A DNA stretch of 64,000 nucleotides from Pontibacter indicus (GTDB taxonomy: Bacteria; Bacteroidota; Bacteroidia; Cytophagales; Hymenobacteraceae): assembly GCF_900156345.1 (NCBI RefSeq), contig NZ_FTPP01000001.1:558001-622000 (forward strand), given 5' to 3'. Positions 36,131-49,498 of this stretch are shown one piece after another. The position numbers and the translations under genes were made by a program. Numbering within the stretch: position 1 is the first letter of the stretch; every line of letters starts with the position of its first letter. A model generated the notes under the pieces. The model did not search any database, had not been told where the DNA came from, and saw only the letters and a list, made by a program, of their open reading frames with translations.

Positions 36131-36544
36131 TTAGTGAGGCAGTCTGTCTTTGATAGCGCCATACACATAGGTACCGGATAACGCACCTGCTATGGCGATA
36201 AATATCGCCCAGTAGCTGAAGCCCACGTTCACAAACATCGGACCCGGGCAGGCACCAGTGAGCGCCCAACCCAAACCGAAAATAGTACCGCCAATAAGGT
36301 AGCGAGAAACAGACTTTTCCTTGGGCGTGAATACGATCGGGTTGCCCTGAATATCGCGCAGCTTGAACTTCTTGATCACAAAAGTGGCAATGGTACCCAG
36401 CACCACAGCTGTTCCGATAATGCCATACATGTGGAAGTCCTGGAAGCGGAACATCTCCTGAATACGATACCACGAAATCGCCTCCGACTTACTCATCACG
36501 ATGCCGAACAAAATACCGGCTATTATAAATTTTATACTTTTCAC
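36131..36544 (-). CDS. YeeE/YedE-type (DUF6691) sulfur transporter half
   Basis: A 137-residue membrane protein with about four helices and the motif G-L-G-W-A-L-T-G-A-C-P-G-P (about 94-106), whose Cys is the conserved sulfur-contact position of YeeE/YedE proteins. In E. coli and Spirochaeta, full-length YeeE (TsuA) imports thiosulfate; here the family is split into two half-size genes with this one second. It lies 121 bp downstream of the first half across an AT-rich hairpin. Confidence 0.88.
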   Translation of the reverse strand: MKSIKFIIAGILFGIVMSKSEAISWYRIQEMFRFQDFHMYGIIGTAVVLGTIATFVIKKFKLRDIQGNPIVFTPKEKSVSRYLIGGTIFGLGWALTGACPGPMFVNVGFSYWAIFIAIAGALSGTYVYGAIKDRLPH

Positions 36545-36665: not shown

Positions 36666-37223
36666 TTATAAAATTAATGGTAGCAGCACAAACGTGGTGA
36701 TCAGTCCGCCGATGAAGAAGCCGATCACGGCGATGAGGGAGGGAAGCTGCAGGTTGGAGATACCACTGATGGCGTGACCCGAAGTACAGCCTCCTGCGTA
36801 GCGCGCACCGAATCCTATCGCGAATCCGCCCAGCAGCAGAATCAGGAATCCTTTGAGGGTGAAGGCAGCGCTCAGGCTGAAGATCTCTGAAGGCTGCATG
36901 CCGTCAGGAGCAGAAATTCCGAGTTGCTGCAAGTCTTGGATCGTAGCCTGTGAGATTTGCACCGGCTCGCCGGAAGAAAGAAACTCCGCTGCGATAAAAC
37001 CGCCGATGATGGCACCTACCAGAAACAACAGGTTCCAGGTCTGGGCACGCCAATCATAATCGAAGAACTTAAGCTTTTTACCAGCACCGCAGGCTGAACA
37101 AATCACGCGCAGGTTCGACGAAAAACCGAACGACTTACCGAAAAACAACAGCAGCACCATGATAAAAGCGATCACGATACCCGAGGTATACCAGGGCCAT
37201 GGTTGGCTTATGAACTCTAACAT
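36666..37223 (-). CDS. YeeE/YedE-type sulfur transporter half
   Basis: A 185-residue membrane protein with four or five helices. The signature G-A-R-Y-A-G-G-C-T-S-G-H-A-I-S-G (about 138-153) holds the conserved Cys; a second C-S-A-C-G-A-G motif (about 42-48) follows the first helix. Together with the 137-residue partner it would make a complete thiosulfate/sulfur-compound permease. It is 88 bp downstream of the rhodanese gene; a GC-rich hairpin sits in that gap. Confidence 0.9.
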   Translation of the reverse strand: MLEFISQPWPWYTSGIVIAFIMVLLLFFGKSFGFSSNLRVICSACGAGKKLKFFDYDWRAQTWNLLFLVGAIIGGFIAAEFLSSGEPVQISQATIQDLQQLGISAPDGMQPSEIFSLSAAFTLKGFLILLLGGFAIGFGARYAGGCTSGHAISGISNLQLPSLIAVIGFFIGGLITTFVLLPLIL

Positions 37224-37311: not shown

Positions 37312-37644
37312 TTAATTTTTGTTTGGCCAAGCATCGATACCGCCCGCCAGGTTGTAACACTTAAAGCCTTGCGCGCTCATCAGGTCGCAGGCAGAACCGC
37401 TGCGGTTGCCGCTACGGCAGAACACAAAGTACGCTTTGTTTTTGTCTAGCGACTTCAGTGCGTTCTGGAACTGGCCTGTGGTTACGTCCAGGTTCCTGGC
37501 GCCTTTGATGGTGCCAGAGGCAAACTCACCAGCTGTGCGCACATCGAGCAGCTCGGCATTATCAGCGTTCTGGAATTGTGTTTTGAATGATTTTCCGTCC
37601 AGGTTTTCGTAGTTCTTTGGAGTGGATTTAAAGGTATTGAACAT
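37312..37644 (-). CDS. Single-domain rhodanese sulfurtransferase
   Basis: A 110-residue cytosolic rhodanese with the active-site loop F-C-R-S-G-N-R-S-G (about 75-83, catalytic Cys76) and the usual strands L-L-D-V-R-T-A-G-E-F. Single-domain rhodaneses move sulfane sulfur between persulfides, sulfite/thiosulfate and acceptors. It is the first gene of the unit that continues into the two YeeE/YedE halves, and its promoter carries the GTGAC-N4-GTCAC operator. Confidence 0.94.
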   Translation of the reverse strand: MFNTFKSTPKNYENLDGKSFKTQFQNADNAELLDVRTAGEFASGTIKGARNLDVTTGQFQNALKSLDKNKAYFVFCRSGNRSGSACDLMSAQGFKCYNLAGGIDAWPNKN

Positions 37645-37686: not shown

Positions 37687-37730
37687 CAAAGGTACAGGTA
37701 GGATAAAACAGGTTCAGTGACTTTGGTCAC
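37687..37730 (-). promoter_or_regulatory. Crp/Fnr-type operator and -7 box of the rhodanese-YeeE operon
   Basis: On the minus strand the operator GTGAC-N4-GTCAC (37717-37730, centre 37723.5) lies 33 bp upstream of the perfect -7 box TACCTTTG (37687-37694, centre 37690.5). No TTTG -33 box is present where the operator sits, consistent with an activator-dependent class II promoter. The start codon is 43 bp further on. Confidence 0.8.
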
Positions 37731-37806: not shown

Positions 37807-39219
37807 TTATTTTAAGGTAGAAGGGCATACATAAGCCGTTCTAGGTATGTCAGTTTCAGAGATGGCTTTGTAGCCTCCTTCCACGTTGATCACGTTGTCA
37901 AAGCCTCTTGCCTTCAGGATAGAAGCTGCGATCATGGAGCGATAGCCACCGGCACAGTGGATGTACATGTCCTCGTTTTTCGGCAACTCGGCCAGGTGAT
38001 CGTTGAGGTAGTCGAGCGGAGCGTGCTGCGCTGTTTCTACGTGCTCGGCCTGGAACTCGCCTGGCTTGCGCACATCCACTACTTTGATGCTGTTATCTTT
38101 TGCGTAATCGGCAGCAAACGCAGCAGCAGAAATGGACTTGATGGTGTCTACTTTCTTGCCAGCAGCTTTCCATGCTTCGAGTCCGCCTTTGAGGTAACCC
38201 AGCGCAAAGTCGTAGCCTACGCGGGCCAGCCGGGTCACTACTTCCTCTTCACGGCCTTCGTCGGCAATGAACAGAATAGGCTGCTGGATATCCGGAATTA
38301 AAGCGCCGATCCAGGGAGCAAAGTTGCCGTCGATGCCAATGTTGATCGAGTTAGGTACAAATCCGGCAGCGAAAGTTTCTGGTTTGCGTGTATCGAGCAC
38401 CAGCGCACCCGTTTCGTTCACAGCCGCCTCAAAGGCGTCCGGTGAAAGCGCCTGCTGACCTTTTGCCAGTACCTCGTCAATGTTCGCGTAGCCTTCCTTG
38501 TTCATCTTCACGTTCATCGGAAAATAGCCTGGAGGAGGCAGCAAACCGTCGGTTACCTCTTTCACAAATTCTTCTTTGGTCATGTCGGCACGCAGGGCGT
38601 AGTTGGTCTTCTTCTGGTTCCCGAGCAGGTCACTTGTCTCTTTGCTCATGTTTTTGCCGCAGGCCGAACCGGCACCGTGCGCCGGGTATACCACTACATC
38701 ATCCGGCAAAGTCATAATCTTGCTGCGCAGCGAATCGAACAGGTGCTCAGCGAGTTGTTCCTCTGTCAGGTCAGACTTTACTGCCAGGTCCGGACGACCC
38801 ACATCGCCGATAAAGAGCGTGTCGCCTGAGAAGATAGCTGTTTCTTTTCCGTTCTCGTCGATGAGCAAATAGGTCGTTGACTCCATTGTGTGACCCGGTG
38901 TGTGCAGCACCTTGATGGTCACGTTGCCAAGCTTCAACTCTTCGCCGTCAGTGGCGATATGCGCTGCAAAAGTAGGCTGGGCATTTGGTCCGAAAACGAT
39001 CTGGGCGCCAGTGGCTTTTGCCAAATCCAGGTGACCTGAGACGAAGTCGGCGTGGAAGTGCGTCTCCAGTACATATTTGATTTTGGCATTGGCCTTTTCA
39101 GCCTTTTCGATGTAAGGTTTTACCTCCCGAAGCGGGTCGATGATGGCGACTTCGCCATCGCTTTCGATGTAGTATGCGCCTTGTGCCAGGCAACCTGTAT
39201 AGATCTGTTCTACTTTCAT
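37807..39219 (-). CDS. CstB-like persulfide dioxygenase / pseudo-rhodanese / rhodanese fusion 1
   Basis: A 470-residue cytosolic protein with three parts. The metallo-beta-lactamase persulfide dioxygenase (about 1-245) has H54-x-H56-x-D58, His110, Asp133 and His181 as iron ligands or near-site residues, and Cys187 in GAGSACGK. The middle rhodanese fold (about 265-355) has L-F-I-A-D-E-G-R at the active loop, with no Cys. The C-terminal rhodanese (about 370-455) has H-C-A-G-G-Y-R-S with Cys422. This is the layout of Staphylococcus aureus CstB, which oxidises persulfides and makes thiosulfate. The ATG at 39219 was chosen over an upstream in-frame start. It has its own operator and promoter, and a terminator. 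Confidence 0.92.
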   Translation of the reverse strand: MKVEQIYTGCLAQGAYYIESDGEVAIIDPLREVKPYIEKAEKANAKIKYVLETHFHADFVSGHLDLAKATGAQIVFGPNAQPTFAAHIATDGEELKLGNVTIKVLHTPGHTMESTTYLLIDENGKETAIFSGDTLFIGDVGRPDLAVKSDLTEEQLAEHLFDSLRSKIMTLPDDVVVYPAHGAGSACGKNMSKETSDLLGNQKKTNYALRADMTKEEFVKEVTDGLLPPPGYFPMNVKMNKEGYANIDEVLAKGQQALSPDAFEAAVNETGALVLDTRKPETFAAGFVPNSINIGIDGNFAPWIGALIPDIQQPILFIADEGREEEVVTRLARVGYDFALGYLKGGLEAWKAAGKKVDTIKSISAAAFAADYAKDNSIKVVDVRKPGEFQAEHVETAQHAPLDYLNDHLAELPKNEDMYIHCAGGYRSMIAASILKARGFDNVINVEGGYKAISETDIPRTAYVCPSTLK

Positions 39220-39283
39220 GGGTATAGGGTTATGAGTTCTTTCGTTTCTGTTTTCTGTTGTCACTTCTTATCCGATGACACTA

Positions 39284-39327
39284 CAAATATCAGTATATTA
39301 TTTGCGCGATACAGTGACTTAGGTCAC
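39284..39327 (-). promoter_or_regulatory. Crp/Fnr-type operator and -7 box of CstB-like gene 1
   Basis: GTGAC-N4-GTCAC (39314-39327, centre 39320.5) is again 33 bp from a -7-like box GATATTTG (39284-39291, centre 39287.5; one mismatch to TAnnTTTG). The operator also lies 15 bp from the stop codon of the next gene, so it can only serve this gene. Confidence 0.75.
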
Positions 39328-39341
39328 GCTGGTACATTTTT

Positions 39342-40199
39342 TTAGAAGAAAAGCTCTTTTCCGATGATATAAACACCCATCACCAGGACGAACCAACCAA
39401 AAGCGGTTTTGAGTTTGTCGGCGTGGATTTTGGCGGAAAGGTAAGTGCCCACGAAGATACCAGCAATGGAGATGGCTGAGAAAATACCCAGGAACATCCA
39501 GTCGATTTCGTAGTTGAATATGTCGCCGATAAAACCGAAAAGTGACTTAGCTGCGATGATCAGAAGGGAAGTACCTACGGCCATTTTCATGTCGAGTTTA
39601 CTGAAGAGCACCAGCGCAGGAATAATCAGGAAGCCACCGCCTGCTCCTACCAGACCGGTGAGCGTACCCACCACCAGACCTTCGGCCAGAATGCCGGCGT
39701 AGTTGAATTTTGGTTTCGGGTGGGGGGTGCCGTTTCCTTCCACATCAATCTCTGTGTCGATGTTTTCGTCCACCATGTCCACGGCTTCAGATGTGGCAGG
39801 AGTTTTCTTTTTCCTGATCATGCTGATGGAGGCAAACACCATCAGTCCGGCGAAAAGTAACATCAGCATAATGCCTTTGGTTACCATGAAATCGCCCACC
39901 GAGAAGATCTCTTCAGGTATAGCCGGCACCAGGTAACGGCGCGTGAGGTATACGGCAACGATAGAAGGTATACCAAACACGATGGCTGTCTTCATGCTGA
40001 CCAGCCCGTTTTTGTAGAATTTGTAAGAGCCCACCAGACTGGTCAAACCCACAATAAAGAGTGAGTAGGCGGTAGAGATAACGGGGCTCAAACCGATGAG
40101 GTATACCAGTACCGGCACTGTCAGAATAGAGCCACCACCACCAATCAAACCGAGAGAAAGCCCGATCAGCAGGGCCGCTATATAACCTAGTATTTCCAT
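39342..40199 (-). CDS. TauE/SafE-family sulfite/sulfonate exporter
   Basis: A 285-residue membrane protein with eight helices in two repeats: [17 protein letters not shown] (about 16-32) and [15 protein letters not shown] (about 181-195), the glycine-rich signatures of TauE/SafE. A charged cytosolic loop (about 125-165) separates them. Family members export sulfite or sulfonates, and tauE accompanies cstB in S. aureus. Own operator and promoter. Confidence 0.93.
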
Positions 40200-40228: not shown

Positions 40229-40272
40229 CAAAGGTATAGCGGCTTTCAAAGGACTTCAGTGACTAGAATCAC
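40229..40272 (-). promoter_or_regulatory. Crp/Fnr-type operator and -7 box of the TauE gene
   Basis: GTGAC-N4-ATCAC (40259-40272, centre 40265.5), one change from perfect symmetry, is 33 bp upstream of TACCTTTG (40229-40236, centre 40232.5), which is identical to the -7 box of the rhodanese operon. Confidence 0.8.
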
Positions 40273-40538: not shown

Positions 40539-41186
40539 TTAGACTACCTCCAGATCATGTACTTCAATAAAATTTCTGTGCAGGGTGATGGCGCCGGATT
40601 GCTCTAGTTTTTTGAGGAGGCGGGAGATCACTTCGCGGGAGCTGTTGAGCTCGAGGGCGATCTGTTGGTGGGAGAGGCGGATCTCTTTGCCACTCACTTT
40701 CACGTGGCGCTTGAGGTAGAACAAGAGACGCTCGTCGAGGCCTTTAAAGGCAATGCTGTCGAGGGTTTGCAGGAGCTCTTCGAAGCGCTGGCGGTAGGAG
40801 GCAATGACAAAATTGTGCCAGCTCTTATACTTGGCCAGCCATTGTTCCGACAGGTGGGAGGGAATCAGGATGACCTCTGCCACGGTGACGGCTTTGGCCA
40901 TGATTTGGCTCTGCTCGTCACGGGCGGTACACATCATGGATAGGGCGCAGGCATTGCCCGGCTCCAGGTAATACATCAGAAACTCATTGCCTTCGTCGTC
41001 CTCGCGGTATACCTTGAGCAGCCCGCTCAGGAGCAGGACGGTGGAGCGAATGTACTGCCCGGTACGCATCACTTCTTCGCCTTCTTCAACCTGTTTGATG
41101 GTGCTGTGCGTCAGTATTTCGTCGAGGAGAGTTTGCTCAAATTGGGGGAACTGTTGAAGGATAGCTTCTTTCTGTGATATTTCCAT
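40539..41186 (-). CDS. Crp/Fnr-family transcription regulator of the sulfur island
   Basis: A 215-residue protein: N-terminal cyclic-nucleotide-binding-like beta roll (about 1-115), dimer helix (about 118-145) and C-terminal winged helix (about 150-215). The recognition helix is N-S-S-R-E-V-I-S-R-L-L-K-K-L (about 182-195). Its R-E-x3-R pattern aligns with CRP Arg180, Glu181 and Arg185, which read GTGA, and matches the four nearby operators. The cAMP-contact residues are not conserved. Cys80 and Cys86 (ACALSMMC) could be a thiol or persulfide sensor, which is inference. No operator is seen in its own promoter region. Confidence 0.9.
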   Translation of the reverse strand: MEISQKEAILQQFPQFEQTLLDEILTHSTIKQVEEGEEVMRTGQYIRSTVLLLSGLLKVYREDDEGNEFLMYYLEPGNACALSMMCTARDEQSQIMAKAVTVAEVILIPSHLSEQWLAKYKSWHNFVIASYRQRFEELLQTLDSIAFKGLDERLLFYLKRHVKVSGKEIRLSHQQIALELNSSREVISRLLKKLEQSGAITLHRNFIEVHDLEVV

Positions 41187-41250
41187 ATTTTAGTATACGT
41201 GTCGTATAGGTTAGGATAGGTTTTAAGGTATGGCAAGTTTAAAGCAAAAA

Positions 41251-41283
41251 ACCAGTGCAGGCACTATGAGTACCCGCACTGGT
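41251..41283 (-). terminator. Terminator after CstB-like gene 2
   Basis: Stem ACCAGTGC/GCACTGGT (41251-41258 with 41276-41283), followed on the minus strand by T6. It separates this transcript from the regulator gene. Confidence 0.75.
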
Positions 41284-41304
41284 CATAATTAATTTATAAA
41301 AGGC

Positions 41305-42642
41305 TTATTTAAAGTCGTTTACAGCTTCGCTCAGGTCAAGCACTTTAGTGTTTGGCAAGGCGGCCTCCACAATGCTGCTGCCTGCCGCCGAACGGTAGCC
41401 TGCCGCGCAGTGCACCACAACCGGTTTGTCGGTCGGAATTTCCCTGGCACGCTCACGCAACTCTGGCAGTGGAATGTTAATGGAGTTTGAAAAGAATTTG
41501 CCACCCTTTACTTCCGAGACATTGCGAACGTCCACAATGGTGAACTGGTCCTGGTTTTCTCTGAACTCCGCTACATTCATCTCGGCAGATTTTTCTTTGC
41601 CAGCCTCGGTCTGCACAAAGGCTCCTTCGATCAGCAATTCATAACCGATTTTAGAAGCTTTCTGGATCAGGTCATTCAGTTCGTCTTCAGTTTCAGCGAT
41701 CAGGTAGTAGCGCTCGTTCGGACCGACAATGCTGCCCAGCCAGGTTTCGAACTTGCCACCGTTCTGGATGTTGATCGCACCTTCGAGGTGTCCTTTTTTG
41801 AAGACTTTCTCGCTGCGACTATCCACGATCAGAGCACCACCGCTCGGCTTATGGTTTTTCTCCAGTCTCTTCACTTTGTCCAGGCTTGGCTGGTAAGACG
41901 GAGCGCCTTGCTTGTTCAGTCCCACATCGTAGCCGAAGTATTTAGGTATAAACGGCTGGTCTTCGGTGAGCACTTTCACAAATTGATCTTCGCTCATGTC
42001 CTGCAGCGCGTAGTTGCTTCTTTTCTCGGCCCCGATGGTGCTGCTGTTGGCGCTACTTAAACCTTTACCGCAAAGCGAACCGGCCCCGTGCGCCGGGTAT
42101 ACCAACACAGCGTCGTCCAGCTTCATCAGCTTTCCGCGGGTGCTGTGGTACATCTGGCGGGCGAGTTCCTCGCGTTTGGCCGTCACATTGCCGGCACTCT
42201 CCCGTAGGTCCGGACGACCCACGTCACCGATGAAGAGCGTATCGCCTGTAAATACCGCTATGTCTTTGCCTTCTTGCTCCAGCACAACGCTGATGCTATC
42301 CGGCGAATGGCCCGGTGTGTGCAACGACTTCAGTTTTATCTCACCGATCTCCAGCACATCGCCTTCGTCGAAAGCAGTATGCGGATAATCTGCGCCTACC
42401 AGGCTGTGGGCATAAATAGTCGCACCTGTTTTTTCGTGAATCTCCAAATGCGAACTCACAAAGTCAGCGTGCGGGTGTGTTTCGATCACCCCAACGATTT
42501 TGGCATTATGCTGCTCGGCATAATCGTAGTAAGGCTGCGGATCACGCGCCGGATCAACCAACACAATTTCACCTGTTTTTTCATTTAGGATGGCATACGC
42601 GTAATGCGCTAAGCCTTTGTCTACGAACTGTTCTATTTTCAT
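41305..42642 (-). CDS. CstB-like persulfide dioxygenase / pseudo-rhodanese / rhodanese fusion 2
   Basis: A 445-residue paralogue with the same three parts as the 37807-39219 gene, and close to the 444 residues of S. aureus CstB. MBL domain: H56-x-H58-x-D60, His112, Asp134, His185, and Cys191 in GAGSLCGK, the position of the CstB domain-1 Cys. The middle domain has Y-L-I-A-E-T-E-D at the active loop, again without Cys. The C-terminal rhodanese has H-C-A-A-G-Y-R-S with Cys412. Divergence between the two copies is considerable (MKIEQF versus MKVEQI starts, different linkers), so they are probably not a recent duplicate and may prefer different persulfides. Confidence 0.92.
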   Translation of the reverse strand: MKIEQFVDKGLAHYAYAILNEKTGEIVLVDPARDPQPYYDYAEQHNAKIVGVIETHPHADFVSSHLEIHEKTGATIYAHSLVGADYPHTAFDEGDVLEIGEIKLKSLHTPGHSPDSISVVLEQEGKDIAVFTGDTLFIGDVGRPDLRESAGNVTAKREELARQMYHSTRGKLMKLDDAVLVYPAHGAGSLCGKGLSSANSSTIGAEKRSNYALQDMSEDQFVKVLTEDQPFIPKYFGYDVGLNKQGAPSYQPSLDKVKRLEKNHKPSGGALIVDSRSEKVFKKGHLEGAINIQNGGKFETWLGSIVGPNERYYLIAETEDELNDLIQKASKIGYELLIEGAFVQTEAGKEKSAEMNVAEFRENQDQFTIVDVRNVSEVKGGKFFSNSINIPLPELRERAREIPTDKPVVVHCAAGYRSAAGSSIVEAALPNTKVLDLSEAVNDFK

Positions 42643-42703: not shown

Positions 42704-42747
42704 CAAAATTAAAGTATACGTTGCCGGCACACAGTGATGTAAGTCAC
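42704..42747 (-). promoter_or_regulatory. Crp/Fnr-type operator and -7 box of CstB-like gene 2
   Basis: GTGAT-N4-GTCAC (42734-42747, centre 42740.5) lies 33 bp from TAATTTTG (42704-42711, centre 42707.5), a perfect TAnnTTTG box. Confidence 0.8.
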
Positions 42748-43749: not shown

Positions 43750-44847
43750 ATGAAAATCATGAAGAGCTTTCTCATGCTTATGGGATCGTGTGCCTTGCTG
43801 TGCCAATCCGGTTGTACAGACTCAAAAGGAGAAAAAGTAGAAGAAGCCCATACCAAGTACCTGGTCACAAGCCCGATGAAAATGGACACGACCATCACCG
43901 AAGACTATGTTAGCCAGGTGCATGCGATTCGCCACATCGAACTCAGGGCTCAGGAAAGAGGCTACCTGCAGAAGATCTATGTAGACGAAGGGCAGCTGGT
44001 GAAAAAAGGGCAGCTCCTGTTCAAGATCATGCCGAATCTGTACGAGGCGGAGCTGCTGAAAGCACAATCCGAAGCCAGTTTCGCCCGAATAGAGTACGAG
44101 AACACCAAAAAACTGGCAGACGGCAACATTGTGTCGCCCAACGAACTGGCAATGGCCAAAGCCAAATGGGACAAGGCCAAGGCTGATGTTGCCCTGGCAC
44201 AGGCACACCTGCAGTTTACCGAAATCAGAGCTCCTTTTGATGGTATCGTTGACCGTTTCCATGTAAGAGAGGGGAGCCTGCTGGAAGAGGGAGAATTGCT
44301 TTCTTCGCTGTCAGATAACAGCAAAATGTGGGTATACTACAACGTGCCCGAAGCTGAGTACCTGGATTATAAAACCAAAACGGAGCAGGGTCAGGCTGCT
44401 AACGTGAGCTTGCTGATGGCCAACAACCAGCTCTTCGCCCACCAGGGTGTGGTCGAGACCATTCAGGCCGATTTTAACCATGAAACGGGCAACATTGCCT
44501 TTCGGGCTACTTTCCCGAACCCCGAGGGCCTGCTCCGACACGGCGAAACAGGCAATATCCGCATGGCGATCCCGCTCCAAGATGTGCTGCTGATTCCGCA
44601 GAAAGCCACTTACGAAGTACTGGACAAGAAATATGTTTATGTACTGGACAAGGACAATGTGTTGCGCTCCCGCGAAATCACGATTGAGGCCGAAATACCG
44701 CACATCTACGTGGTACAGAAGGGCCTGCAGGAAAATGACAAGATCCTGCTGGAAGGCCTGCGTCTGGTGCGCGAGAACGAAAAGATCAACTCCCAATTCG
44801 TAGCGCCTGCTACCGTGCTCACACAGTTAGACCTGTATGCCGAGTAG
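43750..44847 (+). CDS. RND efflux periplasmic adaptor (MFP/HlyD family)
   Basis: A 365-residue lipoprotein adaptor (lipobox C-Q-S-G-C, Cys21). Order: beta-barrel strand, lipoyl half (about 62-85: V-D-E-G-Q-L-V-K-K-G-Q-L-L), an alpha hairpin (about 90-150), second lipoyl half (about 155-180: I-R-A-P-F-D-G-I-V-D), beta-barrel (about 190-270) and membrane-proximal domain. It links the inner-membrane pump to the TolC-like channel. The ATG at 43759 is an alternative start. It is followed 24 bp on by the pump gene. Confidence 0.93.
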   Translation: MKIMKSFLMLMGSCALLCQSGCTDSKGEKVEEAHTKYLVTSPMKMDTTITEDYVSQVHAIRHIELRAQERGYLQKIYVDEGQLVKKGQLLFKIMPNLYEAELLKAQSEASFARIEYENTKKLADGNIVSPNELAMAKAKWDKAKADVALAQAHLQFTEIRAPFDGIVDRFHVREGSLLEEGELLSSLSDNSKMWVYYNVPEAEYLDYKTKTEQGQAANVSLLMANNQLFAHQGVVETIQADFNHETGNIAFRATFPNPEGLLRHGETGNIRMAIPLQDVLLIPQKATYEVLDKKYVYVLDKDNVLRSREITIEAEIPHIYVVQKGLQENDKILLEGLRLVRENEKINSQFVAPATVLTQLDLYAE

Positions 44848-44871
44848 CCAGGTAATTTAAAAGCCAAAAAC

Positions 44872-47800
44872 ATGTTTAGTAAATTCATACACAGGCCCGT
44901 ATTCGCGATTGTGATATCGGTCATGATCGTTTTTGTGGGCACGCTGGCCATTAAAAAGCTGCCTATTTCCCAGTTCCCCGACATTGCACCTACTACGGTC
45001 AATATCTTTATCGCCTACCCGGGTTCCAGTGCCGATGTGCTGGTAAACTCGACCCTGATTACGCTCGAACAGGCCATCAACGGGGTGGAGGGCATGCGCT
45101 ACATCGCTACCGATGCCACCAGTGCGGGAGAGGCCACACTACGCATCATTTTTGAGCCAGGCACTGACCCCAATGATGCCGTGGTGCGGGTAAAGACCCG
45201 AGTAGACCAGGTGATGCCGCTCTTGCCAGAACTGGTACAGCGCGAAGGGGTGGTGATTACGCCCGTGCAGCCGAGTATGCTGATGTACGTGAACCTCTAC
45301 TCCAAAAATGAGAGCATGGACGAGAAGTTCCTCTTCAACTATGCCACTGTGAAGATGATCCCGGAAATACAGCGCATCAAAGGCGTGGCGCGGGCACAGA
45401 TTTTGGGTAGCCGCCGCTATGCCATGCGTATCTGGCTCAATCCTGACCGCATGCGCGCCTACAACATTTCGTCAGATGAGGTGATGAAGGCATTGGAGGA
45501 GCAGAGTATCATCGGTCGTCCGGGTCGTTTAGGCCAAAGTTCAGGTATAGCAGCGCAGTCGCTGGAGTATGTGCTCACCTACAAAGGCAGGTATAACAAA
45601 CCAGAGGAATACGAGGGCATCATTGTGCGGGCCAACGCCGAGGGCGAGATCATCCATCTGAAGGACATTGCCACAGTTGAGCTGGGCAGCGAATTCTTCG
45701 ACATTTACTCGAACCTGGACGGACGCCCGTCGGCGGCGATCGTGCTAAAGCAGAACTACGGGAGCAACGCCAGCGACGTGATTGCCGACGTGAAGTCACA
45801 GTTGGAGGAAATGCGTCCCTACTTCCCGCCAGGTATGGACTATAAGATCAGCTACGACGTGTCGCAGTTTCTCGATGCATCTATCGAACAGGTGATCCAT
45901 ACCTTGCGCGACGCCTTTATCCTGGTGGCCATTGTGGTGTTCATCTTCCTGGGCGACTGGCGCTCGACGCTAATCCCGATTCTGGCCGTGCCTGTGTCGC
46001 TGGTGGGCGCCTTTTTTGTGATTCAGTTCTTTGGGCTGTCTATCAACCTAGTGACACTCTTTGCATTGGTACTGGCAATTGGTATAGTGGTCGACGACGC
46101 GATTGTGGTGGTGGAGGCCGTTCATGCCAAAATGGAGGAAGAGCCGCACCTGTCGCCATACAACGCCGTGAAAAAAGTGCTGGGTGAGATCAGTGGGGCT
46201 ATTATCGCGATCACGGCCGTGATGGTGGCAGTGTTCCTGCCAATCTCGTTCATGTCGGGTCCGGTGGGTACTTTTTACCGCCAGTTCTCCATCACCATGG
46301 CGAGTTCTATTGTGATTTCGGCGCTGGTGGCCCTTACCCTCACGCCTGTGTTGTGCGCCATGTTGCTCAAGAACCACCACGGCCATCAGAAGAAGCAAAA
46401 CATCCTTACCAGGTCGCTCGATAGCTTTAACCGTGGGTTTGATAAACTGACGGGCAAGTATGTGGGTTTGCTGCGGCACATGGTGAGCCGCAAATGGCTG
46501 ACTTTTGCGATCCTACTGGCATTTGGCGCTGCCATTTTCGTGCAGAACCAGGTGCTGCCGTCCGGTTTTATCCCGAACGAAGACCAGGGAACCATCTACG
46601 CCATCATCCAGACGCCTCCAGGCTCTACCCTGGAGAAAACCAACGAGGTGTCGCAGCGGCTGCAGAAGATATGCGAAGAGATAGATGGCGTGGAGTCGGT
46701 GTCCTCGCTGGCGGGTTACGAGATCATGACCGAGGGCAGGGGCTCGAACGCAGGTACCTGTCTGATCAACCTGAAGCGCTGGTCAGAACGTCACCACAAC
46801 GTGAAGGAGATCATGGAAGAGCTGGAGGAAAAATCGCATGGCCTAGGTGCTGTGGTGGAGTTCTTCGAGCCACCGGCAATCCCTGGTTTCGGTTCGTCGG
46901 GCGGTTTCTCCATGCGCTTGCTCGACAAAAACTCCGAGACCGATTACCACGAGTTCGACAAGGTGAACCAGGAGTTCATGGACAACCTGCGCAAGCGAAA
47001 GGAGCTGACAGGTCTGTTCACATTCTTTGCGGCCAACTATCCGCAGTACGAACTGCAGATTGACAACAAGCTGGCCATGCAAAAGGGCGTGTCGATTGAG
47101 ACGGCCATGGAGAACCTGAACATTCTGATCGGCAGTACTTACGAGCAGGGCTTTATCAAATTCAACCAGTTCTTTAAGGTATACGTGCAGTCCGATCCTC
47201 AATTCAGAAGACTACCTTCAGATGTGATGAAGCTTTACGTTCGCAACGACCAGGGCGAGATGGTACCGTACTCGGCTTTCATGAAGCTGAAGAAAACACA
47301 GGGGCCGAATGAGGTCATGCGATTCAACCTCTACAACTCTTCCGCCATCCAAGGGCTTCCAGCCAAAGGTTATACCACGGCCGATGCCATTCAGGCGGTG
47401 CAGGAAGTAGCTAAAGAGACCCTGCCAAATGGCTACGATATTGCCTGGGAAGGCCTGTCGTACGACGAGGCGAGCAAGGGTAACGAGGCGCTTTACGTGT
47501 TCCTGATCGTGGTGGTGTTCGTGTACTTCGTCCTGGCGGCCCAGTACGAGAGCTTTATCATTCCGCTGGCAGTCGTGTTCTCCCTGCCTGTCGGGGTATT
47601 CGGTTCGTTTCTGGTACTGCAGCTGATGGGACTCGAAAACAACATCTACGCCCAGGTGGGGCTGATCATGCTGATCGGTCTGCTCGGTAAGAACGCCGTG
47701 CTGATCGTAGAGTTTGCCGTGCAGAAGCGGCAGGAGGGAGCCACTATTTTTGATGCTGCCATCGAAGGGGCCAAGGTGCGTTTCCGCCCGATCCTGATGA

Positions 47801-48075
47801 CGTCCTTTGCCTTTATCGCAGGTCTGATTCCGCTGATCATCGCGACGGGCGCGGGTGCCATCGGTAACCGCACTATAGGGGCTTCTGCGCTCGGAGGTAT
47901 GCTGTTCGGTACCATCTTCGGTGTCATCATTGTGCCTGGTCTGTACTACATATTCGCGCACCTGGCCGACGGTCGTCACCTGATCAGGCATGAACACGAA
48001 ACGCCTTTGACAGAAGGGCTCGGGGTCATGGAAGAGAAAGAACTTTTAACCGAAGAAGTTGAGTACAATGCTTAA
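44872..48075 (+). CDS. RND efflux pump, HAE1/AcrB family
   Basis: A 1,067-residue inner-membrane proton-driven exporter with 12 TM helices and two large periplasmic loops. Family marks include the start F-I-H-R-P-V-F-A-I-V, P-D-I-A-P-T-T-V (porter domain), and the TM4 proton-relay G-I-V-V-D-D-A-I-V-V-V-E (about 400-411) with its Asp pair. The C-terminal G-L-L-G-K-N-A-V-L-I-V-E (TM10) holds the Lys partner. Length is normal. Substrates are probably hydrophobic drugs or solvents but cannot be specified. The gene ends with an 8-bp overlap into the outer-membrane factor. Confidence 0.95.
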   Translation: MFSKFIHRPVFAIVISVMIVFVGTLAIKKLPISQFPDIAPTTVNIFIAYPGSSADVLVNSTLITLEQAINGVEGMRYIATDATSAGEATLRIIFEPGTDPNDAVVRVKTRVDQVMPLLPELVQREGVVITPVQPSMLMYVNLYSKNESMDEKFLFNYATVKMIPEIQRIKGVARAQILGSRRYAMRIWLNPDRMRAYNISSDEVMKALEEQSIIGRPGRLGQSSGIAAQSLEYVLTYKGRYNKPEEYEGIIVRANAEGEIIHLKDIATVELGSEFFDIYSNLDGRPSAAIVLKQNYGSNASDVIADVKSQLEEMRPYFPPGMDYKISYDVSQFLDASIEQVIHTLRDAFILVAIVVFIFLGDWRSTLIPILAVPVSLVGAFFVIQFFGLSINLVTLFALVLAIGIVVDDAIVVVEAVHAKMEEEPHLSPYNAVKKVLGEISGAIIAITAVMVAVFLPISFMSGPVGTFYRQFSITMASSIVISALVALTLTPVLCAMLLKNHHGHQKKQNILTRSLDSFNRGFDKLTGKYVGLLRHMVSRKWLTFAILLAFGAAIFVQNQVLPSGFIPNEDQGTIYAIIQTPPGSTLEKTNEVSQRLQKICEEIDGVESVSSLAGYEIMTEGRGSNAGTCLINLKRWSERHHNVKEIMEELEEKSHGLGAVVEFFEPPAIPGFGSSGGFSMRLLDKNSETDYHEFDKVNQEFMDNLRKRKELTGLFTFFAANYPQYELQIDNKLAMQKGVSIETAMENLNILIGSTYEQGFIKFNQFFKVYVQSDPQFRRLPSDVMKLYVRNDQGEMVPYSAFMKLKKTQGPNEVMRFNLYNSSAIQGLPAKGYTTADAIQAVQEVAKETLPNGYDIAWEGLSYDEASKGNEALYVFLIVVVFVYFVLAAQYESFIIPLAVVFSLPVGVFGSFLVLQLMGLENNIYAQVGLIMLIGLLGKNAVLIVEFAVQKRQEGATIFDAAIEGAKVRFRPILMTSFAFIAGLIPLIIATGAGAIGNRTIGASALGGMLFGTIFGVIIVPGLYYIFAHLADGRHLIRHEHETPLTEGLGVMEEKELLTEEVEYNA

Positions 48076-49498
48076 GAAAATCATCTATAAAGGCTTGGGG
48101 GTGGCCTGTCTGGCCTTGAGCCTGACGGCCTGTGTGACCCCATCGGCCATTCAAAAAACAGAGAACAGATCGGTGCCTGCTAGTTACGTAAACTCGCAGG
48201 ATACCACTAACACAGGCACAGCGGGCTGGCGAAGTTATTTCGCCGACCCTAACCTGGCCGCCCTGATCGACACAGCCCTGCAGCGCAACCAGGAGCTAAA
48301 CATCACGCTGCAGGAAATCGAGATTTCGAAAAACGAGGTGCGGACCCGCAAAGGAGAATATTTGCCAAGTGTAGGTATACGGACAGGCGCCGGGGTGGAC
48401 AAAGTAGGCCGCTTTACCAACATTGGCGCCATGGTGGCCAACACCAACATCGAAGGCGACAGGGCCATGCCGGAGCCCGTACCCGATTTCCTGGTAGGCG
48501 CCTTTGCTTCCTGGGAGGTAGACGTGTGGCACAAGCTGCGCAACGCCAAGAAAGCTGCGGTGTACCGCTACCTGTCTTCGGTGGAAGGACGGAACTTCAT
48601 GGTCACGAACCTGATCTCTGAGATAGCCGATGGCTACTACGAATTACTGGCACTCGACAGTGAACTGGCAATCGTGCAGCAGAACATTGACCTGCAGCAA
48701 AATGCTTTGCGCATTGTGAAAGTGCAGAAAGAAGCCACCCGTGTGACCGAACTGGCCGTGCGCAGGTTTGAGGCGCAGTTGCTGCATACGCAGCGGTTGC
48801 AGTACGACATTCAGCAGCAGATCGTCGAGACCGAAAACCACCTCAACTTTCTGGTCGGCAGGTTTCCGCAACCGATCGTTCGCAACGAGGGTGCCTTTGA
48901 GCAACTGACACCCGCCAAGGTGCAGGCAGGTATACCCACCCAACTGCTGGCCAATCGCCCAGATATCAAGCAGGCGGAGCTGGAGTTGGCAGCTGCCAAA
49001 CTGGACGTAAAAGTGGCCAAAGCGATGTTTTATCCATCAGTAGGCATCACAGCAGGTATAGGCTACCAGGCCTTTAACCCGAGTTTTCTGCTTAATCCTG
49101 AGTCCCTGCTCTATACCCTGGCAGGTGATCTGGCGGCTCCCTTGGTCAACCGAAATGCACTGAAGGCCAGCTATTACAGCGCCAATGCCAAGCAGCTGCA
49201 GGCGGTGTTCAACTACGAGCGAACGATCCTGAACGCCTACATCGAAGTAGTGAACCAGGTGTCCAAGATCGATAACCTGGAGAAAAGCTACGACCTGAAA
49301 GCCAGGGAAGTGGCGGCGCTCAACCAGTCGGTTTCGATTTCGAAAGATCTCTTCTCTTCCGCCAGGGCCGATTACATGGAAGTGCTCCTGACACAGCGGG
49401 AAGCGTTGGAAGCTAAGTTTGAGCTGATTGAAACGAAAAAAGAACAGCTAAACGCCAGAGTGCAGGTATACCGGGCACTTGGTGGCGGCTGGCAGTAA
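48068..49498 (+). CDS. Outer-membrane efflux factor (TolC/OprM-NodT family lipoprotein)
   Basis: A 476-residue lipoprotein (lipobox L-T-A-C, about residue 22) with two repeats of the outer membrane efflux domain (about 65-260 and 290-470). Family landmarks are the N-terminal W-R-S-Y-F-A-D-P-N-L-A-A-L-I and L-L-A-N-R-P-D-I-K-Q-A-E-L-E (about 300-313), the OprM/NodT hallmark. The ATG at 48068 overlaps the pump's stop (ATGCTTAA), indicating translational coupling. It completes the tripartite pump. No strong terminator is seen after it. Confidence 0.94.
   Translation: MLKKIIYKGLGVACLALSLTACVTPSAIQKTENRSVPASYVNSQDTTNTGTAGWRSYFADPNLAALIDTALQRNQELNITLQEIEISKNEVRTRKGEYLPSVGIRTGAGVDKVGRFTNIGAMVANTNIEGDRAMPEPVPDFLVGAFASWEVDVWHKLRNAKKAAVYRYLSSVEGRNFMVTNLISEIADGYYELLALDSELAIVQQNIDLQQNALRIVKVQKEATRVTELAVRRFEAQLLHTQRLQYDIQQQIVETENHLNFLVGRFPQPIVRNEGAFEQLTPAKVQAGIPTQLLANRPDIKQAELELAAAKLDVKVAKAMFYPSVGITAGIGYQAFNPSFLLNPESLLYTLAGDLAAPLVNRNALKASYYSANAKQLQAVFNYERTILNAYIEVVNQVSKIDNLEKSYDLKAREVAALNQSVSISKDLFSSARADYMEVLLTQREALEAKFELIETKKEQLNARVQVYRALGGGWQ

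Follow-up and report, generated by a model that had tools for sequence, protein, structure and literature searches.

A Crp/Fnr protein marked by a conserved cysteine as a probable thiol-based reactive-sulfur sensor and class II activator of a sulfide-detoxification island in Pontibacter

Introduction

Sulfur genes comparable to those described here are elsewhere under the control of CstR, SqrR/BigR, SoxR, sHdrR or FisR (PMC9774590; PMC7315123; PMC12423496). CstR of Staphylococcus aureus, a member of the CsoR family with two cysteines, is an all-helical, tetrameric repressor of a set that includes tauE, rhodanese and MBL persulfide dioxygenase genes. SqrR/BigR, SoxR and sHdrR are repressors with the ArsR fold, in which thiol sensing of sulfane sulfur is tied to sulfur oxidation and to YeeE-type transport; in Hyphomicrobium, a YeeE-type protein relays the sulfur signal to SoxR (PMC11582611). 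FisR is an AAA+, sigma54-dependent activator of sulfide-detoxification genes and a persulfide sensor. Finally, the Crp protein of A. baumannii is persulfidated at a cysteine described as lying opposite the ligand pocket, with unknown effect (PMC7315123). No Crp/Fnr sulfide sensor or island regulator was described in the full-text, largely non-subscription literature searched.

We identified a Crp/Fnr regulator in a sulfur island of Pontibacter, within a window of 64,000 nt (the whole stretch of DNA that was analysed). It has a comparable set of neighbouring genes to CstR, and likewise two cysteines, but the two proteins are unrelated, the regulator having the Crp fold and probably being an activator. 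This agrees with the initial annotation, which had placed the regulator with the island and viewed it as a regulatory solution different from CstR. Its putative sulfane-sulfur sensing would liken it to the ArsR-fold repressors, and its putative activation and persulfide sensing to FisR, which has another fold and promoter type. With Escherichia coli CRP it shares the fold, the residues R180, E181 and R185, the GTGA half-site with a 6-bp spacer (TGTGAN6TCACA) and the predicted class II site at -41.5; CRP, however, serves catabolite genes, whereas the regulator appears to serve one sulfur regulon with the Bacteroidota TAnnTTTG promoter.

The regulator and the sulfur island

The regulator belongs to the Crp/Fnr superfamily, with a beta-roll N-terminus of the cNMP-binding type, a long dimer helix and a C-terminal Crp HTH. 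Its domain matches, all above cut-off, are to the Crp-type HTH profiles PF13545 (E = 3.8e-11) and PF00325, and to the cNMP-binding-type profile PF00027 (E = 5.4e-8). The AlphaFold model (pLDDT 87.7) has the CRP fold, with Z ~17 to CRP/Vfr. The top PDB match, by sequence and by Foldseek, is 3dv8 (EUBREC_1222 of Eubacterium rectale, a Crp/Fnr protein of unknown function), which differs in its low identity (26%) and its Firmicutes origin but has a C-x5-C motif at the same place (MCLLSASC), and which possibly represents the same functional group in Firmicutes. The next-best cNMP-domain protein of this genome scored 37 bits against 395, and no other Crp/cNMP protein encoded in it that aligns across the Cys80 column has a cysteine there.

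Both cAMP contacts of CRP are replaced in the regulator, Glu72 by Leu82 and Arg82 by Gln92, in keeping with the lack of a clear cAMP-binding signature remarked on at the outset. Across 138 relatives sampled in the phylum (see below), position 82 is Met, Ile or Leu, and position 92 is mostly Lys, Thr or Pro. With both contacts absent and a score of 55.7 bits under the NCBIfam CRP model, far below its cut-off of 266, we rejected an identity as CRP proper, activated by cAMP. The only cysteines of the protein are Cys80 and Cys86, which had been noted in the effector domain. By alignment with CRP, Cys80 occupies the position of Ile70, immediately ahead of the phosphate-binding cassette; in the model, a short helix (81-84) would begin at this residue, with a confidence of only ~65 there and poor confidence across residues 81-90.

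The island genes and their promoter elements are listed in Table 1. The regulator gene is predicted to be its own transcription unit. A terminator hairpin parts it from the MBL-rhodanese gene upstream, and its own upstream region in the window contains no GTGAN6TCAC operator. Several Chitinophagaceae loci (L045, L048, L053 and L061) do have, unlike the window, a GTGA palindrome ahead of the regulator ORF itself, at a distance of 58-77 nt, which possibly indicates autoregulation. The true start of MBL-rhodanese B is probably an inner ATG (MKVEQIY). Beyond the YeeE/YedE halves lie MFS, DoxX/DsrE and ResA-like genes, and an efflux operon (HlyD, RND and outer-membrane factor; 43750-49498, plus strand) runs divergently from the island, which it adjoins in some relatives only (L001, L010).

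Table 1. Positions in the window of the regulator gene, the sulfur island genes and their promoter elements.
Feature	Position	Strand	Basis
Crp/Fnr regulator gene, 215 aa	40539..41186	-	ORF, domain profiles, structure model
Terminator (strong hairpin and T-run) separating the regulator gene from MBL-rhodanese A	41240..41300	-	z = -6.3
MBL-rhodanese A: MBL-fold and two rhodanese domains, persulfide dioxygenase/sulfurtransferase type	41305..42642	-	profiles
tauE, TauE/SafE sulfite-exporter family	39342..40199	-	profiles
MBL-rhodanese B: MBL-fold and two rhodanese domains	37807..39264	-	profiles
Single-domain rhodanese	37312..37644	-	profiles
YeeE/YedE sulfur-transport half 1	36666..37223	-	profiles
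YeeE/YedE sulfur-transport half 2	36131..36544	-	profiles
Operator GTGACTTACATCAC, upstream of MBL-rhodanese A	42734..42747	-	motif search
-7 box TAATTTTG, MBL-rhodanese A, 36 nt past operator start	42704..42711	-	
Operator GTGATTCTAGTCAC, upstream of tauE	40259..40272	-	motif search
-7 box TACCTTTG, tauE	40229..40236	-	
Operator GTGACCTAAGTCAC, upstream of MBL-rhodanese B	39314..39327	-	motif search
-7 box GATATTTG, one mismatch, MBL-rhodanese B	39284..39291	-	
Operator GTGACCAAAGTCAC, upstream of rhodanese	37717..37730	-	motif search
-7 box TACCTTTG, rhodanese	37687..37694	-	

The association between regulator and island extends over the phylum. The regulator adjoins tauE, MBL, rhodanese or yeeE genes from Pontibacter to Chitinophagaceae and Pedobacter, and 80 of the 138 sampled relatives lie within 5 kb of such genes; among the 58 unlinked relatives, 19 adjoin a thioredoxin gene, a small membrane protein gene or both. 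The window protein groups with other regulators of this island and not, as would have spoken against the initial annotation, with those of unrelated loci. Two unlinked copies (L136 and L137), whose loci contain GTGA sites, face a gene pair, the first gene of which in L136 (6942-8333) encodes subunit I of cytochrome bd, a sulfide-tolerant oxidase. The cydAB genes are induced by sulfide in A. baumannii (PMC7315123). In Flavobacterium davisii (L073), the regulator gene adjoins an MBL-rhodanese gene and is split over two frames, reflecting either a broken gene or a sequencing error.

Operators, regulon and promoter geometry

We identified five GTGAN6TCAC sites in the window, against 0.78 expected and with none of 100 shuffles reaching five, which upholds the GTGA half-sites of the initial annotation. 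Four are upstream of island genes (MBL-rhodanese A and B, both of the persulfide-dioxygenase/rhodanese type, tauE and rhodanese), and the fifth (41966) is within coding sequence. All four island operators start exactly 36 nt ahead of a TAnnTTTG box, the Bacteroidota -7 element, and a single mismatch occurs in only one of these boxes.

A composite of operator and box (GTGAN6TCAC-N(21-23)-NAnnTTTG) was searched for across the whole genome, with the reversed motif as a control. Six matches were found in 4.57 Mb and none in the control; the strict form, with a 22-nt gap, accounted for five, namely the promoters of the four island genes and that of a thioredoxin gene, which lies on a different contig, 106 nt downstream of its composite (G000:C7:222389; L079; L085:3390-3816). 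The sixth match (C8:1570177), which has a gap of 23 and overlaps a start codon, was set aside as chance. Two congeners (L261 and L262) carry the same composite ahead of thioredoxin, and 13 genomes of the genus together contain 63 strict composites, versus 3 in controls. The targets in 33 of 33 readings, which are all that were readable and count some sites twice through overlapping loci, are MBL-rhodanese, tauE, rhodanese, yeeE, thioredoxin (in three genomes), and SoxB-like or DUF6132 genes. Among the Pontibacter promoters read, none belongs to a peroxidase, catalase or metal pump. The SoxB-like and DUF6132 targets were seen in congeners L273 and L264, where the composite precedes genes for a SoxB-like protein of the 5'-nucleotidase family (TIGR04486, 278 bits, under the cut-off of 550) and a DUF6132 small membrane protein; these are possible further sulfur genes.

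The spacing between operator and box is rigid. Across 76 loci (75 related loci and the window), 90 TAnnTTTG boxes stand at +36 and at most two at any other spacing; for all loci with a Glu185-type regulator, the corresponding counts of NAnnTTTG boxes are 176 and at most seven. When each distinct composite promoter is counted once, Pontibacter/Adhaeribacter contribute 129, Chitinophagaceae and others 34 and the wide sample 19, and there are 23 of a GTAA type; the 36-nt spacing is thus repeated in more than 180 distinct promoters across the phylum. The strict composite is absent from 49 of 134 Glu185 loci. Most Flavobacterium-like loci have hybrid sites or no perfect ones. No perfect GTGA sites were found in L121-L129; five loci have a GTAAC-N4-GTCAC hybrid with the 36-nt spacing retained, and in L121-L125, of the same class, this operator of one half-site of each kind occurs despite a Glu185 helix.

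Crp/Fnr proteins that bind at -41.5 are typically activators, and this is the class II activator position of CRP. RNA-seq in Flavobacterium johnsoniae places the box at -12 to -5 (PMC6847099), and its position is the same in F. psychrophilum (PMC9723704). Taking start sites from Flavobacterium rather than Pontibacter, the 36-nt spacing would thus put the operator at -48 to -35, centred on -41.5. Such rigid spacing points to contact with RNA polymerase, and hence to activation. The fixed geometry, which the initial annotation had missed, argues for activation over CstR-like repression.

Recognition helix and operator

The recognition helix, 182-SSREVISR-189, retains the DNA-contacting residues of CRP, as originally proposed, with R184, E185 and R189 corresponding to CRP R180, E181 and R185. 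Within the TGTGA half-site of CRP, G2 is a contact of Arg180, and the C:G pair at position 4 is one of Glu181 and Arg185 (PMC11253593). A sister clade in the phylum-wide sample has Val185, at the position of CRP Glu181, and operators of the form GTAAN6TTAC with the same 36-nt spacing, so that the changed helix residue is the one that reads the changed operator base. Among loci with a composite, Glu185 accompanies 19 GTGA and 1 GTAA operators and Val185 accompanies 1 GTGA and 18 GTAA (Fisher P = 5.8e-9, which overstates the independent evidence, as the tree implies only about two operator changes; an independent-pairs test of helix against operator had too few pairs for significance). Two loci (L160 and L175) each contain two paralogous regulators, one with Glu185 and one with Val185, and both operators, one GTGA and one GTAA. 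The Val185 clade without Cys86 gives a weak GTAA signal, with some exceptions.

The prediction of the GTGA operator from the helix, made in the initial annotation, is thus extended: there is a strong case that the helix predicts the operator and that DNA recognition is of the CRP type, because Val185 relatives pair with GTAAN6TTAC at the same spacing. A change of CRP specificity of this Glu/Val, GTGA/GTAA kind was reportedly made by mutation in the 1980s, and the pairing identified here is a natural case of such a change.

Conservation of the cysteines

Cys80 and Cys86 are both invariant in the nearer relatives, in 79 of 79 rows, among them a second copy of the window gene and two fragments of one broken gene, one of the search peptides having spanned Cys86. 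The free variation among close orthologues that would have undermined the initial annotation is therefore not seen. A second sample was gathered by profile from 392 Bacteroidota genomes, of which 157 had a match and 138 relatives were read. In these, which have a median identity of 38% to the window protein, Cys80 is present in 138 of 138, a count somewhat biased by a search profile built solely from Cys80-bearing sequences. Only three other columns are fully invariant: Tyr72 and the two DNA-contacting arginines, R184 and R189. Position 86, in contrast with Cys80, is Cys in 71 relatives, Gly in 32, Ala in 20, Asn in 5, Thr in 5, Ser in 4 and Glu in 1.

We accordingly rejected the cysteine pair as a signature of the family, the pair being conserved in the nearer clade; the family mark is a universal Cys80 with a clade-specific partner. 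The suggestion that the pair might be invariant in island-linked copies only did not hold, since Cys80 is invariant everywhere and Cys86 is absent from 23 of the 80 linked copies. The island-linked subclades without it include L186, L189, L193, L198, L202 and L210, and copies without Cys86 likewise adjoin tauE, MBL, rhodanese and yeeE genes. Linkage is nevertheless commoner with Cys86 (57 of 71 copies, versus 23 of the 67 without it; P = 5e-8, kinship ignored). Since several subclades linked to the island do without Cys86, a two-cysteine switch is not the general mechanism. The conserved cysteine that could react is Cys80.

Proposed mechanism and rival explanations

In the mechanism that we propose, a dimer of the CRP fold, dedicated to this island, occupies GTGAN6TCAC with its centre at -41.5 and would recruit RNA polymerase in class II fashion at both MBL-rhodanese genes, tauE, rhodanese and, elsewhere in the genome, thioredoxin. 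It would not read a cyclic nucleotide; instead, the signal is probably a persulfide, polysulfide or sulfane sulfur that reacts with Cys80 in what was once the cNMP pocket, with Cys86, where present, as a possible partner thiol (through a disulfide or polysulfide link). The YeeE halves of the island could likewise relay a sulfur signal, by analogy with the YeeE-type protein that does so for SoxR in Hyphomicrobium. The case for the predicted DNA recognition, regulon and promoter geometry is strong. That the regulator activates the sulfur island, as the promoter geometry suggests, we consider very likely. We infer from its invariance that Cys80 is an essential functional residue, and thiol sensing there is probable. 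For the chemistry of the signal, the make-up of the regulon and the example of other sulfur sensors lead us to favour reactive sulfur somewhat. As a whole, the reading of the protein as a thiol-based reactive-sulfur sensor and class II activator of a sulfide-detoxification island is one that we hold to be reasonably probable.

The same regulon and sites could instead serve a repressor released by reactive sulfur, similar to CstR or SqrR. Several of the sulfur sensors already described act by repression (PMC9774590; PMC12423496), and there would be overlap between the operator and the -33 region; yet a repressor has no need of an exact spacing from the -7 box, which here is constant to the nucleotide throughout the phylum and equals a position typical of activator sites, making this improbable. 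A structural role for Cys80, or one in adapting the pocket to a non-covalently bound small ligand (thiosulfate, sulfite or a low-molecular-weight thiol) in the way of PrfA and glutathione, we find unlikely. The place of Cys80 in the former cNMP pocket region, the sufficiency of a single cysteine in half of the relatives and the existence of glutathione-activated Crp-family proteins, PrfA and Vfr (cited in PMC7315123), would fit such a role, but replacement by Ser, Ala or Val is never seen in the 138 diverged sequences, which suggests that the thiol itself matters.

Sensing of general thiol oxidation (H2O2, HOCl or electrophiles) or of a metal by Cys80 and Cys86, with the island induced for thiol repair, would accommodate two cysteines able to form a disulfide, the thioredoxin gene in the regulon and the thioredoxin genes that adjoin some relatives. 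The Pontibacter composites are, however, almost wholly at sulfur genes, with none of the peroxidase, catalase or metal pump promoters mentioned above, and we view this explanation as rather unlikely. An Fe-S or O2 sensor of the FNR type is largely refuted and carries very little probability: it would come from the same superfamily, and sulfide oxidation requires O2, but the regulator has only two cysteines, neither of them close to the N-terminal end that provides the cluster ligands in FNR, and many relatives have a single one. The FNR class was rejected for the regulator on this lack of further cysteines and on its operators, which are GTGA and not TTGAT.

Conclusion

A broader statement of the reactive-sulfur sensor, to which we give even chances, is that an undescribed Crp/Fnr family extends through the phylum, using an invariant pocket cysteine as a covalent reactive-sulfur sensor and activating persulfide detoxification from -41.5, in which a change of the Glu181-to-Val type has re-tuned GTGA to GTAA, allowing two paralogues to operate next to each other in a single locus. 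The proposal lends itself to direct testing, since it specifies the genes targeted, the operators to the base, where the promoters lie and which residue to mutate. The reviews consulted name dedicated bacterial persulfide sensors of the CsoR, ArsR and sigma54-activator types; a Crp/Fnr activator, if true, would explain how Bacteroidota control sulfide detoxification.
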